In this document: positions 3,961-42,164 of the stretch, one piece after another
How the letters are laid out: every line of letters begins with the position of its first letter
How positions within the stretch are numbered: the first letter of the stretch is position 1
Assembly (NCBI GenBank): GCA_016182525.1
Contig: JACPGL010000008.1
Coordinates: forward strand, 1-43,604
Direction: 5' to 3'
DNA length: 43,604 nucleotides
Origin: Candidatus Kerfeldbacteria bacterium
Lineage (GTDB): Bacteria > Patescibacteriota > Patescibacteriia > JACPL01
Notes under the pieces: model-generated
The model's input: the letters and a program-made list of their open reading frames with translations, nothing else
The model's database searches: none
What the model was told of the DNA's origin: nothing
Program-made: the position numbers and the translations under genes

Positions 3961-4079
3961 ACATTCATTTTGAGATCCGTTCTCATTCCAAATGTGGATA
4001 ACTGGATCCACTCTCATCCAAACTGTGGATAACGAGAACGGATCTCATTTTCCTAGAAAAAGGTCAATTTGCGTTCGCG
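3961..4079. repeat. 119-bp direct repeat, copy 2 (at the native rodA end)
   Basis: Second copy of 2813-2931. The 13-bp inverted repeat is at 3972-3984 / 4034-4046, with DnaA boxes at 3993-4001 and 4024-4032. Bases 4053-4079 are the real rodA C-terminal codons. The palindrome thus sits directly behind the rodA stop codon, where it may act as a 3' hairpin. Confidence 0.95.
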
Positions 4080-5174: not shown

Positions 5175-5191
5175 AGGAGATGTGGGGAATG

Positions 5192-5211
5192 CCTGCCTGC
5201 CGACAGACAGG
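5192..5211. repeat. Degenerate copy of the CCTGCC palindrome, rodA leader
   Basis: CCTGCCTGCC followed by GACAGACAGG, an imperfect palindrome flanked by GGGGA (5184-5188) and TCCCC, so a hairpin can form between the stop of the gene at 5222 and the rodA start. It is related to the perfect palindrome at 37148-37167. Confidence 0.6.
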
Positions 5212-6261: not shown

Positions 6262-6573
6262 ATGTTCGATACGAGTAAAGACCTTTTGAATGTGGTCATT
6301 GCGTTTAGTGTGCTTTTGTTCACGGTGTTTCTTGTCTGGATCATGTATTACATCGTGCAGATTTTGAAGCAGGCCAACACGACGCTCGCTGAACTGCACT
6401 CGACCATGCACAAGATGGGCGAAACGCTCGACCTCATTCGCGACAAAGCCACATCCATGGTTGCCACGATTTCCACAATGGGCGCAGGCATGAAAGAGGT
6501 GCTGTCATTCATCGAACGACGGCGCGCGTCTTCCAAGCGTAAAGAGGAGAATGTGACCGAAGAAGAAGTATGA
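6262..6573 (+). CDS. Small single-span membrane protein with coiled-coil tail
   Basis: A 103-residue protein beginning MFDTSKDLLNVVIAFSVLLF. One N-terminal membrane helix (about residues 9-33) is followed by a helical, heptad-like region (KQANTTLAELHSTMHKMGETLDLIRDK, split here by family resemblance only) and a charged tail of Arg, Lys and Glu. The layout resembles DUF948/YtxH-type small envelope proteins, but I cannot assign it. It precedes dnaE by 131 bases, which contain the structured element at 6594-6686. Confidence 0.75.
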   Translation: MFDTSKDLLNVVIAFSVLLFTVFLVWIMYYIVQILKQANTTLAELHSTMHKMGETLDLIRDKATSMVATISTMGAGMKEVLSFIERRRASSKRKEENVTEEEV

Positions 6574-6593
6574 AGTATAGAGTGAAATAACGA

Positions 6594-6686
6594 CGGGTGG
6601 CAGCGGGAAAGCGGTCACACCGAGCGTAGTCGCGAGCGAAGCGAGCATGGAGCGAGGTGTGACAGGGCGCCCGCTGACAGGACCCG
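6594..6686 (+). ncRNA. Structured dispersed element S1, copy 1 (upstream of dnaE)
   Basis: Conserved 5' arm GGGTGGCAGCGGGAAAGC and 3' arm GACAGGGCGCCCGCTGACAG, then GACCCG. Stems: GGGT/ACCC, CAGCGGG/CCCGCTG and GTCACACC/GGTGTGAC, with a variable apical part rich in GAGCG. Almost identical to 22118-22209; diverged copy at 35591-35665 with compensatory changes. It ends 18 bases before the dnaE start codon. The family is not one I recognise. Confidence 0.7.
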
Positions 6687-6704
6687 TGGGGATTTCCCTT
6701 ACTT

Positions 6705-9700
6705 ATGGCATTTGTTCACCTTCATAACCATAGTCATTACAGTCTCCTCGACGGATTGACCAAGATTCCGGAGATGATTTCGCGTATCAAAGAACTGGGC
6801 ATGAACGCCGTCGCGCTCACTGACCACGGCTCGATGTACGGCGCGATTGAGTTCTACCAGCTCGCGAACAAAAACAATATCAAACCCATCATTGGCGTGG
6901 AGGCGTACATTGCCCCGAACCGCCTCACGGATAAGCGACCGCGCGTTGATGACCGGCCGAGCCACCTGACGCTCCTTGCCAAAACAACCGAGGGCTACCA
7001 TAACCTCATCAAGCTCGTTTCCATCGCGCACACGCAAGGGTATTACTATAAGCCGCGGATGGATATGGATGTGCTGGCGCAGTATCACAACGGCATCATT
7101 GCGTTATCTGGATGCTTAAACGGGCTCATCCCTCGTGCGATTTTATCGAATCAACCCGAAGCGATCAAGCGCGGCATTCAGCGGTTCGTCACCATTTTCG
7201 GCGACGATTTTTATTTTGAACTGCAACCGAATTTTGCCGAAGGCAAACAGCCCGTGGTCAACAACGCGCTCGCTGAACTTTCGAAAACCAAGGGCGTGCG
7301 GTTGGTGGCGACAAACGACTGCCACTACGCTCGGCCTGAAGACGCCGAATCGCAAGATATTCTGCTCTGCATTCAAACGAAAAAGAAAAAAGCTGATACG
7401 GATCGCATGTCATTTGGCGATTCAAACTGTTCCATCACGTCTGAACACGATATTCGTGCGCAGTTCCCTGATCACCAAGAAGCGATTGACGAAACAGCGC
7501 GCATTGCCGATGCGTGCCAAGTCGAGATTGAATTTGGCAAGTCCATACTCCCCCACTTCGACACACCGCATCCGAAAACCGCTGAAGAATATTTACGAGA
7601 CTTATGCGAGCAAGGACTTGTCACTCGCTATGGGAGAGGAGGAGCGACGCCGACGGTGCGCGCGCGACTTGAATACGAGCTTTCAATTATTACGCAGGCC
7701 GGCTTCTCCTCCTACTTTTTGATTGTGCAAGATTTTGTGAACTGGGCAAAGAAGAATGGAATTGTCGTGGGGCCCGGTCGTGGCAGCGCTGCTGGCAGTC
7801 TCGTCTCGTATCTCTTGAATATTACCAACCTTGACCCGCTGACATATAACTTGCTGTTCGAACGATTTTTGAATCCGGAACGTATTTCCATGCCGGATAT
7901 TGACTTGGATTTTGCCGATGCGCGACGTAGTGAAGTGCTCGCGTATGTTGAAGAGCGGTATGGCAAAGATCATGTGGCGCAAATCATTACGTTTGGAACC
8001 ATGGCTGCGCGGGCGGCGGTGCGAGATGTCGGCCGTGTGCTTGGACTTTCGTATGGCTTTTGCGATCGGATCGCAAAAATGATCCCCATGTTTACATCGC
8101 TCTCCGAAGCGCTCACGAGCAACGCGGAGTTGAAAAGCGTGTACGACAGCGACCCGGACGCAAAAACGCTTCTTGACGGAGCACGAAAACTCGAAGGGTC
8201 TGCGCGCCACACCTCCACGCATGCGTGCGGAGTCGTCATCACCAAAGAAACACTCACTGAATACATGCCGATTCAGTATGCCGCGCCAGACGACCCAACC
8301 ATCATCACGCAATACTCATTGCACCCGATTGAAGATTTAGGGTTCTTGAAGATTGATTTTCTTGGGCTGAAAAATCTTACGATCATTGAAAACGCGATTG
8401 CGATTATCGAAAAAACGGCGGGCGAGAAAATCGACATGGATCACATCCCGCTCGACGACGCCAAAACATTTCGTTTGTTCAAGCGCGGGGATACGACGGG
8501 CGTGTTCCAGTTAGAAAGTTCGGGCATGAAGCGGTATTTGCGCGAGCTCAAACCTACTGAACTCGAAGATATTATTGCCATGGTGTCGCTCTATCGGCCC
8601 GGACCCATGGAACTTATTCCGGATTATATCGCCGGCAAGCACGGAACAAAAAAAACCACGTACCTCCACCCCAAGTTGGAACCCATCTTGGGGAAAACGC
8701 ATGGCATTGCGGTGTATCAAGAGCAAGTGCTGCAAATTGCGCGAGACATTGCCGGTTTTACCCTTGGCGAAGCCGACCTCTTGCGTAAAGCGATCGGAAA
8801 AAAGATTAAAGAGTTGTTGTTGGAGCAGCGAGAAAAATTTATTCGCGGCGCGATTGCAAACAACGTGCCACATGTGATTGCTGAAAAGCTGTGGGATTTT
8901 ACTGAACCGTTCGCGCGCTACGGATTTAACCGCAGTCACGCCGCGTGCTATGCCATGATTGCCTACCAAACCGGATACCTGAAAGCCAACTACCCAGCAC
9001 AATTCATGGCCGCGCTTCTCACCTCTGATCAAGACAACACGGACCGCATTGCCATTGAAGTTGAAGAATGTCGTGCCATGGGAATTGACGTGCTGCCACC
9101 GGATATCAACGAAAGCTATTCCACCTTTACGGTTGTGAAAGAGAGCGTTGAAGCCGGCAAACCGCGCATCCGTTTTGGGATGAAAGCCATTAAAAATGTG
9201 GGCAGTAATATTGTGGATGTGATTATTCAAGAGCGCAAAAAAAATGGCAAATATGCGAATCTTGAAGATTTCTTGCGCCGCGTTCACTCGAAAGACCTAA
9301 ATAAAAAATCACTCGAGAGCTTAGCAAAATCCGGCGCGCTGTCCCCTCTGGCCGAACCGAACGAAATTTTGTACAATATGGATACGTTGCTGCGTTTTGC
9401 GAAAGACGTGCACGCTGCCGTCTCGAGCGGCCAAGCGAATCTGTTTCAAGGAGTTGCGGTTGGGTCTGCGCCTCGGCTCACGCTCAAGCAAGTCGCCCTT
9501 GTCCACATCGCCCAAAAACTTTCGTGGGAAAAAGAGCTTCTCGGCTTGTACATCTCTGGCCATCCGTTAACCGAGTTTGAAGAAATCTTTAAACCCTTCC
9601 CCAAGATTCGTGATCTTCGCGAGGCGCCAAAAAAATCTGACACGTCGATTGTGGGAATCATTCATGCTGTCAAGCGCGTCACGACAAAAAACGGCGAGCT

Positions 9701-16941: not shown

Positions 16942-17106
16942 GTGGGAAGGATGGACACATGTTTCTAAGCGGCATATCCCGCAGGCAATTTCGGCTTGGT
17001 CCGAAGCTCGAAGAGCTGAGGCGAAATTGCCGAGGGAAAAGAACGATCGGCTGCTGGAGCCGATCGATTCTGGTGCCGCGTGAAACATGTGTCCAGCCGC
17101 TCCCAC
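16942..17106 (+). ncRNA. Structured dispersed element S2, copy A (thrS-miaB intergenic)
   Basis: Outer stem GTGGGA (16942-16947) and TGGACACATGTTTC (16952-16965) pair with GAAACATGTGTCCA (17082-17095) and TCCCAC (17101-17106). The 112-base core (16969-17080) has GCGGCA/TGCCGC, TCCC/GGGA, GGCAATTTC/GAAATTGCC, AGCTC/GAGCT and ATCGGCT/AGCCGAT helices, with fixed loops CTTGGTCCGA, GAGG, AAGAACG and CGATTCTGGTG. A core of the same length at 34583-34694 covaries in every inner helix. I do not recognise the family. Confidence 0.75.
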
Positions 17107-22117: not shown

Positions 22118-22209
22118 CGGGTCCTGTCAGCGGGCGCCCTGTCACACCTCGCTCCAGGCTCGCTTCGCTCCCGCTACGCTCGGTGTGACCGCTTTCCCGC
22201 TGCCACCCG
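22118..22209 (-). ncRNA. Structured dispersed element S1, copy 2 (upstream of argF)
   Basis: On the minus strand nearly identical to 6594-6686, including both conserved arms; the only visible changes are in the apical GAGCG part. It has the same orientation relative to argF as copy 1 has to dnaE, ending 29 bases before the start codon. Confidence 0.7.
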
Positions 22210-31478: not shown

Positions 31479-32137
31479 ACAACAGGGTACGCGCGTTTCA
31501 GTTCGTCGATTTTACCTTCGCGCACGAGCCGCATCTCCACATCTTTATCCGGCTGCGCTGAATGTTTTTGTCCGTTCTCATATTCGTGATATTTCGATTG
31601 TGTCAGCCCGTGCATGAGCGCGTCTTCTTCGGAGATGGTGTTCGTGAGTGTTTGAAAAATAATTTGACACATGCGTTCGCCTGGATACAATCGAATGGTT
31701 TGCGTGTGCGTGTTATTCCGAACAGGGATGGTGAGATGGCCTTTGTACCGAACGTCGATAATGCCGGAAAGATCAACCGCCAAGCCGCGACGGTTAAACG
31801 ACGTGCGCGGATACAAGACGGACATGACATCATTCGAGAGCTGCACTTTTTCGAGCGTGGTGACGATCACGAACTCGCCGGGCAGCACTTCAAAGTATTG
31901 CCCTTGCGTGAGCGTGATCACTTCGAACAAGTCGCCGTTTAAGGGATTGAGGTAGTCGACGCTCAATGCCTCTCGGCCGCGCTCTGTGAGCGCCCACGTT
32001 TTGGGCAGCCGGAACTCATAGCCAAGCCGTAAATCCACGGCATGGGGCTGCATTTGAAATGCGTCAAGAGCCGGCTCAAACGCGAGTTTACCGCTCTGAA
32101 TATATGCCTTAATTTCGTCTCGTGTTAATACCGACAT
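31475..32137 (-). CDS. dcd: dCTP deaminase / dUTPase family protein
   Basis: A 220-residue trimeric beta-fold protein. Family motifs: MQPHAVDLRLGYEF, LSNDVMSVLYPRTSFNRRGL (RTS phosphate-binding), GIIDVRYKGHLTIPV and a C-terminal QSKYHEY. It should deaminate dCTP to dUTP, or dUMP if bifunctional; the first strand is a little longer than in E. coli Dcd. First gene of the dcd-tmk-gatB run, preceded by the palindrome at 32155-32228. Confidence 0.9.
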   Translation of the reverse strand: MSVLTRDEIKAYIQSGKLAFEPALDAFQMQPHAVDLRLGYEFRLPKTWALTERGREALSVDYLNPLNGDLFEVITLTQGQYFEVLPGEFVIVTTLEKVQLSNDVMSVLYPRTSFNRRGLAVDLSGIIDVRYKGHLTIPVRNNTHTQTIRLYPGERMCQIIFQTLTNTISEEDALMHGLTQSKYHEYENGQKHSAQPDKDVEMRLVREGKIDELKRAYPVV

Positions 32138-32143
32138 ACAGGC

Positions 32144-32228
32144 TGTGGATAACCAGATCCGTTCTCGTTATCCACAGTTCGAGTGAGAGTGGATCCAGTT
32201 ATCCACAGTTTTAATGAGAACGGATCTC
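32144..32228. repeat. DnaA-box palindrome, third copy (inverted relative to 2824-2898)
   Basis: Inverted repeat 32155-32166 / 32217-32228 (AGATCCGTTCTC / GAGAACGGATCT) around TTATCCACA boxes at 32168-32176 and 32199-32207; a third perfect box, TGTGGATAA, is at 32144-32152. It lies behind the stop of the amidohydrolase gene and before dcd. The interior is clearly homologous to the reverse complement of copies 1 and 2. Confidence 0.9.
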
Positions 32229-34557: not shown

Positions 34558-34717
34558 AGGTGAGATTTAGATAGTTTCCGGAGCGGCACGTCCCGCAGGC
34601 GGTTTCAGCTTGGTCCGAGGCCCGGAGGGCCGAGGTGAAACCGCCGAGGGAGAAGAACGCTCGCCCGCTGGAGGCGAGCGATTCTGGTGACGCGAGGAAA
34701 CTATCTAAATCTCACCT
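34558..34717 (+). ncRNA. Structured dispersed element S2, copy B (between dfrA and thyA)
   Basis: A 22-bp perfect outer stem (34558-34579 / 34696-34717) encloses a 112-base core (34583-34694) homologous to 16969-17080. Inner helices GGCGGTTTCA/TGAAACCGCC, GGCCC/GGGCC and CTCGCC/GGCGAG differ from copy A by paired changes, while loops CTTGGTCCGA, GAGG, AAGAACG and CGATTCTGGTG are kept. The RNA-like strand is plus, antisense to dfrA and thyA. The outer stem overlaps the thyA stop codon. Confidence 0.75.
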
Positions 34718-35555: not shown

Positions 35556-35590
35556 GAATTTTGGTTGTGGACAAAGTGCATGGAATCCAG

Positions 35591-35665
35591 CGGGTGGCAG
35601 ATGGGAAAGCTTTCACTTTTCGACCACCGGGAGAAGAGTGACAGGGGCCCAGCTGACGGGCCCCG
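35591..35665 (+). ncRNA. Structured dispersed element S1, copy 3 (diverged)
   Basis: GGGTGGCAGATGGGAAAGC ... GTGACAGGGGCCCAGCTGAC then GGGCCCCG. Compared with copies 1 and 2, CAGCGGG/CCCGCTG became CAG-TGGG/CCCA-CTG and the inner stem became TCACT/AGTGA, so pairing is kept while sequence changes. It lies between thyA and the phosphodiesterase gene, on the strand opposite to both. Confidence 0.65.
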
Positions 35666-35679
35666 CTGGGAGCCAAGCA

Positions 35680-36375
35680 CTAAATTCTCTCAGGATAATC
35701 GCTCATGATGCCATCGATCCCCATGATTTTGAGTTTCTCGATGTCTTCAGGCTCATTCACGGTCCATGCGAACACGCGAACGCGGGCATCATGCGCGCGC
35801 TGGATCAATTCCGGCGAAATAATGTGGTAGTCGACGTGCACCTCGCGCGCGCCAAACACTTTCGCCTTTCCTACAATAAAGGGTACTCGAAAAAATGACC
35901 TTGTCAACCGGCTAAAAAGCAGGCCAATCTGCGCGTGGCGATTTTTAACGCGAATTGTCCACAGGTCTTGGTGCGCAAAACTTGAAAACACCGTGTCGCC
36001 AAGCATATCGGCTTGGGTCACCACACGGAGCACATCTCTTGTGATTCGCTTCTCTTTCAACTCCAAAATAATGCGCATACGGCCTTTTACGCACGCCAAC
36101 ACTTCGGCAAGCGTCGGGATATGCTGATCGCCGATTCGAAATGTGCGAAGATTCGCAAGAGTCATGCCGCGGATCTCTCCATTGCCGCCCGTTGCGCTAT
36201 TCACCGTCGCATCGTGAATCACCACCGGCACGCGGTCGCGCGTGAGCCGCACGTCGCATTCCGCAGCGTCACATCCCAGCGCAATCGCGTTTTCAAATGA
36301 CCGCAACGTATTTTCCGGCTCGTGGCCTGCCGAACCGCGATGACCCACTCGTTGAACATGAGTGGGAGTCGTCAT
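35680..36375 (-). CDS. Glycerophosphodiester phosphodiesterase
   Basis: A 231-residue TIM-barrel protein of the GlpQ/UgpQ family that hydrolyses glycerophosphodiesters to glycerol-3-phosphate and an alcohol. Motifs: VGHRGSAGHEPENTLRSF, AAECDVRLTRDRVPVVIHD, ELKEK and the C-terminal VNEPEDIEKLKIMGIDGIMSDYP. There is no signal peptide, so it is cytosolic (UgpQ-like). It follows the rplA stop by one base. It ends in TAG, and copy 3 of element S1 follows. Confidence 0.93.
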   Translation of the reverse strand: MTTPTHVQRVGHRGSAGHEPENTLRSFENAIALGCDAAECDVRLTRDRVPVVIHDATVNSATGGNGEIRGMTLANLRTFRIGDQHIPTLAEVLACVKGRMRIILELKEKRITRDVLRVVTQADMLGDTVFSSFAHQDLWTIRVKNRHAQIGLLFSRLTRSFFRVPFIVGKAKVFGAREVHVDYHIISPELIQRAHDARVRVFAWTVNEPEDIEKLKIMGIDGIMSDYPERI

Positions 36376-37125: not shown

Positions 37126-37222
37126 CGGGGACAGGTGGGCACCCTTCCCTGCCTGCCGGCAGGCAGGCACCCGCCTCACGCGTTCGCAGCTCGTCGGGTG
37201 GAACCTTCCCACCTGTCACCCG
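37126..37222 (-). other. Hairpin-rich rplK-rplA spacer, possible diverged S1 element
   Basis: On the minus strand GGGTGACAGGTGGGAAGG pairs at a distance with AGGGTGCCCACCTGTCCCCG, similar to the S1 arms. A perfect CCTGCC palindrome (37148-37167) sits inside the apical part. It might alternatively serve as an L1 control site, but no L1-binding motif is obvious. Confidence 0.4.
37148..37167. repeat. Perfect 20-bp palindrome CCTGCCTGCCGGCAGGCAGG
   Basis: Self-complementary over all 20 bases. A degenerate copy is at 5192-5211. I recall such palindromes as frequent between genes of CPR bacteria (memory, not checked). Confidence 0.85.

Positions 37223-39572: not shown

Positions 39573-42164
<2,592 letters not shown>

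Follow-up and report, generated by a model that had tools for sequence, protein, structure and literature searches.

Hairpin repeats near dnaE and argF in a Candidatus Kerfeldbacteria genome share their ends with hairpins, probably REPIN-like, of many phyla

The window analyzed here, a 43,604-nt stretch of Candidatus Kerfeldbacteria bacterium (assembly GCA_016182525.1, contig JACPGL010000008.1, positions 1 to 43,604, forward strand), contains copies of a short repeated hairpin, S1, two of which lie just upstream of dnaE and argF. The balance of the evidence leans towards S1 being this genome's branch of a superfamily of REPIN-like, miniature, non-autonomous mobile hairpins that spans many phyla. 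At the level of sequence, these elements show dispersal, structure, strand bias, presence or absence at orthologous sites, and inversion. Because their orientation to genes is mixed, one has been inverted in place, and none occurs in the 19 stretches with Y1 transposase genes that were examined, we favored a REPIN-like mobile hairpin over a leader RNA. S1 is a hairpin of the interspersed kind, with an unusually broad phylum range. The family is apparently undescribed so far, as no earlier account of it was found in the literature searched, coverage of which was partial.

S1 copies in the window and in the Kerfeldbacteria genome

An initial annotation had described S1 as a structured, repeated family with two near-identical copies and a third, diverged one in the window. 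All three copies were recovered, with the following anatomy.

6594..6686, + strand: S1 copy 1, ending 18 nt 5' of the dnaE start (6705)
6594-6598/6682-6686: copy 1, P1 helix
GG 6599-6600/ACAGG 6677-6681: copy 1, terminal loop
6601-6607/6670-6676: copy 1, P2 helix
6608-6613/6664-6669: copy 1, second loop
6614-6621/6656-6663: copy 1, P3 helix, with a variable apex inside it
6569..6593, + strand: copy 1, left outer arm, pairing imperfectly with 6687-6711 (folding with flanks; permutation test over copies)
6687..6711, + strand: copy 1, right outer arm, overlapping the dnaE start
22118..22209, - strand: S1 copy 2, in the pyrF-argF gap, 29 nt 5' of the argF start
35591..35665, + strand: S1b copy (window copy 3), between thyA and a glycerophosphodiester phosphodiesterase-like gene
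35577..35590, + strand: S1b copy, left outer arm TGCATGGAATCCAG, partly complementary to 35666-35680
35666..35680, + strand: S1b copy, right outer arm

As the initial annotation had noted, copies 1 and 2 are nearly the same (97% identity, with all differences in the apical part), and both stand in sense orientation before a start codon. Copy 3 proved genuine as well: it keeps the arms named for it, the paired bases of its third helix are altered on both strands, and it is antisense to both neighboring genes. It belongs to a 75-nt subfamily, S1b, whose five genome copies have outer arms in common (left arm AAGCCTGGATCCAG in the other copies, with matching right arms) and show CTGACGGGCCCCG variants at the base of the element. 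The sense strand of S1 copies folded with z-scores of -3.2 to -5.0.

The genome is a draft of 1.04 Mb that is 79% complete. With copy 1 as query, 16 close copies were found in it (E 2.6e-43 to 1e-18), and the recent spread proposed by the initial annotation is supported. A genome-wide count with a covariance model built on 11 rows gave 23 matches, including the five S1b copies and a distinct one at C46:20079. Together with the folding scores, these counts place the family far beyond chance. Across 11 distinct S1 copies, 96.6% of pair cells pair and four changes are two-sided. In a permutation test on the outer arms of this genome's copies, none of 10,000 permutations paired them as well as their true partners. 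The inner loop GGGAAAGC/GTGACAGGG, which had been called strictly kept, is less constant than that: three S1 copies carry GGGAAGGATGCC, two of which also carry GTGGCAGGG, and the loop that is constant across phyla is the terminal GG/ACAGG. Conserved internal loops are still a plausible recognition site, although the loop originally named as a possible binding site is not the constant one.

Two further observations concern individual S1 copies. One lies within a glycogen-synthase-like (glgA) frame, apparently in frame (contig C52 4246-4341; L026 1501-1596). A 20-nt palindrome, CCTGCCTGCCGGYAGGCAGG, occurs both alone and inserted in four S1 copies (L007, L027, L029, and L031) at one fixed place, between the loop and P1; its sites include 5181-5211 and 37148-37178 of the window, and it is also found in L046.

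Elements with S1 ends in other phyla

A search with the S1 model across 380 genomes of the class, a survey of the Patescibacteria that the initial annotation had suggested, matched three further genomes. Their elements resemble S1 mainly in the ends (CGGGTGGC...GACAGGACCCG) and have quite different inner helices. A whole-S1 pattern had no match in GTDB or IMG/VR, and only a relaxed end pattern, with 45-105 free bases between the ends, succeeded when scanned over GTDB contigs. The S1 ends, CGGGTGGCR...YGACAGGACCCG, occurred in at least 117 contig stretches from many phyla. Taxa among the matches listed were Omnitrophota, Nitrospirae, Acidobacteria, Solirubrobacterales, Acidimicrobiia, Rokubacteria, Gammaproteobacteria, Deltaproteobacteria, Gemmatimonadetes, Aminicenantes, Chloroflexi, Melainabacteria, and several Patescibacteria. 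Among those same matches the P2 helix pairs in 110 of 126 (at least 5 Watson-Crick pairs of 8), and pairing was not demanded by the pattern.

The end pattern occurred 1-57 times in each of the 30 carrier genomes counted, compared with 0 for a reversed-pattern control. It was present in 16 of 379 Patescibacteria genomes (control 0), and genome G390 held 40 copies. Elements are about 70-125 nt long and non-coding, and those within a genome mostly fall into a single tight sequence family or a few such families. Phage and plasmid collections gave no match with the sequences tried. Rfam gave none when the window and 18 foreign loci were searched with gathering thresholds; with the limit relaxed to E 10, two single-copy stretches had no meaningful match and copy 1 had none.

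Conserved architecture, strand bias, and outer arms

To describe the shared anatomy, we aligned 72 distinct elements cut to ends, helices, and outer arms; partial P2 pairing was a criterion for including them, which favors P2, while the outer arms stood outside that choice. In this alignment, 86% of pair cells pair, and two-sided pair changes numbered 338; shuffles gave 127 and slid controls 56-97. The constant base consists of GGGT/ACCC, the asymmetric loop GG/ACAGG, and then a C-G pair, a constancy that is partly by construction because the search pattern fixed these letters. The P2 sequence varies freely and the apex is variable. Many families have inner strands in common, either CCGCAGC...GCGAGGACGG or GCGCAGC...GCGAGCACG. 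In genome G390, both strands of this inner motif were also found in swapped order, as expected of a recognition module.

A palindrome working as double-stranded DNA should have about as many G.U as A.C pairs. In P2 (positions 0-6), wobble-type pairs among the matches listed were 54 G.U and 3 A.C, and 81 elements with independent flanks gave 27 and 3, kinship being ignored in both counts. Because G.U far exceeds A.C, one strand appears to be selected to fold; by this proxy it is the strand running from GGGTGGC to GACAGGACCC, as RNA or as single-stranded DNA. The commonest apical loops, compared as a discriminator between RNA and DNA, were TTTA, GATA, and GAA, in small numbers.

Outside the base, the flanks of near-identical copies differ and are often mutually complementary. 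Arm pairs in genome G384 include ggaaat/atttcc, gggaac/gttccc, and aatgac/gtcatt, and G380 has a variable flank triplet that is mostly complementary. In the 81 elements with independent flanks, perfect arms averaged 3.3 pairs, compared with 1.18 after permutation (highest permutation mean 1.59), and wobble in these arms was unbiased, with 31 G.U and 38 A.C.

Presence, absence, and inversion at orthologous sites

Comparison of related genomes revealed filled and empty sites. G323 and G411 carry an element at one site, while in G168, a related species, the same genes adjoin without it. In another genus, G607 has an element at a first site where G763 lacks one. Both genomes have one at a second site, with the element 91.6% identical, the spacers 78-80%, and the coding sequence 82-87%; a C-G to T-A exchange has occurred in P2. 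At a third site (L283 compared to L321), the hairpin and its outer arms are together inverted in place in G763; the ends of the hairpin are identical, and its apex has changed, partly on both strands. From the filled, empty, and conserved orthologous sites, we conclude that elements come and go, yet also stay conserved. Gene conversion may be a source of the similarity in place.

Orientation to genes, determined by simple gene calling among 110 elements, was tandem-sense for 16, tandem-antisense for 21, convergent for 12, and divergent for 11. One copy separates two divergently transcribed genes, and promoter-like sequence adjoins it on either side. The lack of an orientation rule, together with the inversion in place, disfavors a general leader function.

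In G409, a Melainabacteria draft (L211-L223), 13 near-identical copies are nested in a larger repeat with the ends GGGTGTGTCAG.../...CAGACCC. Most of these larger repeats are bounded by apparent 9-bp direct repeats, such as GTTAGAGAC and GGATGGGAT. From these features we take the composite to be an insertion-sequence miniature inverted-repeat transposable element (MITE), perhaps IS256-like, with the hairpin as passenger. When the flanks of the element itself were viewed by eye in several genomes, repeats were often inverted, not direct.

Long autonomous versions were sought as ends 0.13-6 kb apart, and only tandem duplications or adjacent copies were found. Inverted element pairs enclose a gene in G387 and G384, with no gene common to the pairs. 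As a separate observation, some elements are partially duplicated in tandem, with right halves head to tail at a period of about 70-90 nt (L153 5690-5990; L096 1540-1780; L124).

Proposed mechanism and alternative explanations

In the reading that we favor, of S1 as a REPIN-like mobile hairpin, a folded single strand would be bound at the terminal loop (GGGTGG-C...G-ACAGGACCC) by a trans-acting protein, and the bound protein would copy or move the element. Folding as single-stranded DNA exposed in replication or repair is deemed likelier than folding as RNA. The outer arms would arise when the element inserts into a small palindrome or creates one, and would later sometimes be carried within the unit, and the element may benefit its host.

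Several observations weigh against this reading. Conservation in place exceeds what a purely selfish element would need. Direct target duplications were noticed only at the G409 composite. No recurrent neighboring protein family and no mobilizing protein were found, and none of 19 Y1 transposase stretches contains the element. Replication-strand bias, as judged by GC skew, was weak in 8-kb stretches (about 2 standard errors) and absent in stretches up to 20 kb, though models based on single-stranded DNA often predict one. The G.U and A.C counts are uncorrected for relatedness.

A bolder version of this idea, which we put forward tentatively, is that the superfamily is neither REP, ERIC, attC, nor MITE. 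Some widespread enzyme would read the asymmetric loop on one folded strand of an element that arises in or creates palindromes, can flip without changing its site, and is kept by selection, which would imply a host role in chromosome maintenance or recombination.

An RNA could also account for part of the data. S1 would then be a structured small RNA present in many copies, perhaps dispersed by retroposition in a SINE-like manner, whose transcript folds and whose conserved loops bind a protein. The G.U excess fits RNA and single-stranded DNA equally well, internal loops are conserved beside covarying helices, and the ends are kept in orthologs. However, no conserved promoter was seen next to copies, no reverse transcriptase or other recurrent neighbor was found, and neither the inversion in place nor the absence of an orientation rule suits a transcript, leaving this explanation rather improbable.

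We regard as unlikely a plain REP-like palindrome that spread and then decayed neutrally, with covariation produced by quasi-palindrome correction during replication template switching. Such correction would yield outer arms that pair without strand bias, as observed, and recent spread alone would explain the near-identity of many copies. It leaves unexplained the strong P2 strand bias (54:3), internal loops that were never corrected away, ends that are invariant across phyla, and, at one orthologous site, an element whose conservation exceeds that of the spacers and coding sequence. The initial annotation had set such decay, without covariation, as the alternative to a structured family, and covariation in S1 is strong.

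That the S1 elements are REPs in the strict sense, mobilized by RAYT (Y1) transposases, is very improbable. The general look is that of REPINs, and 12 of 19 carrier genomes have Y1 genes, with two in the Kerfeldbacteria genome. Yet, beyond the absence of the element from the 19 Y1 gene stretches, both of those two genes have different repeats on their flanks, no Y1 match was obtained in several drafts rich in copies (G390, for example), and the stem base lacks a GTAG tag.

The regulatory leader that the initial annotation envisaged at dnaE and argF, whether a riboswitch or a T-box-like switch acting on these and other genes, has hardly any probability left: copies in the own genome are more often sense to genes (about 11 compared to 4), which explains the first impression of a leader, and several lie in sense 15-29 nt before the starts of dnaE, argF, ligA, an rmlD-like gene, and fmt because intergenic gaps are short, but orientation is mixed over the wider set, the target genes are unrelated, an orthologous copy is inverted in place, and Rfam did not match copy 1. 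A T-box was considered from GGGTGGCA, which we take to resemble a T-box sequence, and was rejected on gene orientation and the absent Rfam match.

Other repeats in the window

The initial annotation had suggested a possible fourth copy between rplK and rplA. This hairpin is only a cousin of S1, since it lacks the S1 ends and is unmatched by the S1 model.

37128..37220, - strand: cousin hairpin in the rplK-rplA gap, with the GGGAAGG/AGGGTGCCC inner loop as in S1, holding the 20-nt palindrome

Its closest relative among the stretches compared is L046 (89% over 65 nt). At its end the cousin carries GGGGACAG; this agrees with GGGGWSAS, a motif that has been reported for RAYT-like (TIRYT) genes in their terminal repeats (PMC3733652), and is offered as a lead only.

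A second repeat family, of GTTATCCACAG...GGATCTC type, lies at 2813-2931, 3961-4079, and 32135-32228. Since these repeats match those flanking the gene for a RAYT/Y1 transposase on contig C61 (L033 1150-2080), they are probably the cognate REP of that enzyme. The window also contains a 118-nt direct repeat (16968-17085 and 34582-34699, 81% identical), the latter copy of which is bounded by 34-nt inverted arms (34546-34579/34696-34729), and an apparent intein of about 180-200 aa in the gyrB frame (39573-42155).

Comparison with known systems

If the mobile-hairpin reading is right, a structured repeat family of many phyla has been left without a name because its conservation is confined to short ends and similarity searches miss the elements. 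It would offer a simple search pattern, mark in each genome a protein that mobilizes or binds the elements, and serve as a test of why bacteria retain mobile hairpins. Near-identical hairpins before starts in compact genomes would then not necessarily be riboswitches.

ERIC (IRU) sequences are, like the S1 family, intergenic imperfect palindromes of about 70-130 nt for which no mobilizer is known; they are found in enterobacteria and relatives with a sequence of their own. By this description the S1 family stands apart, as it crosses phyla with only short ends in common. Integron attC sites have a paired base, an unpaired spacer, an inner stem, and a variable terminal structure, and one folded strand is the substrate. 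The architecture of S1 is the same in plan, whereas the family lacks the AAC/GTT core boxes among its invariant alignment columns and forms no cassette arrays. Like MITEs, the elements are non-coding and dispersed, and in G409 they ride in a larger repeat. However, no direct target repeats were noticed around the element itself, and internal loops and P2 covariation such as those of S1 are unexpected in the terminal inverted repeats of a MITE.

The closest likeness is to REPs and REPINs, whose published definitions we followed (PMC3733652, PMC3116915, PMC8266576). Both are short, non-autonomous extragenic hairpins with many copies per genome, constant ends, a variable apex, and stem irregularities such as bulges. 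In REPINs one folded strand is recognized, a property suggested for S1 by proxy from the G.U excess in P2. REPs are defined by a GTAG or CGTC tag (PMC3733652), while S1 instead ends in GGGTGGC/GACAGGACCC with an asymmetric internal loop, its P2 covaries freely, and its ends are the same over many phyla. With no tag and no linked RAYT found, S1 is not a REP by the published definitions. CGTC REPs likewise lack association with a RAYT gene flanked by the same repeat. S1 may still work like a REP despite not being one.
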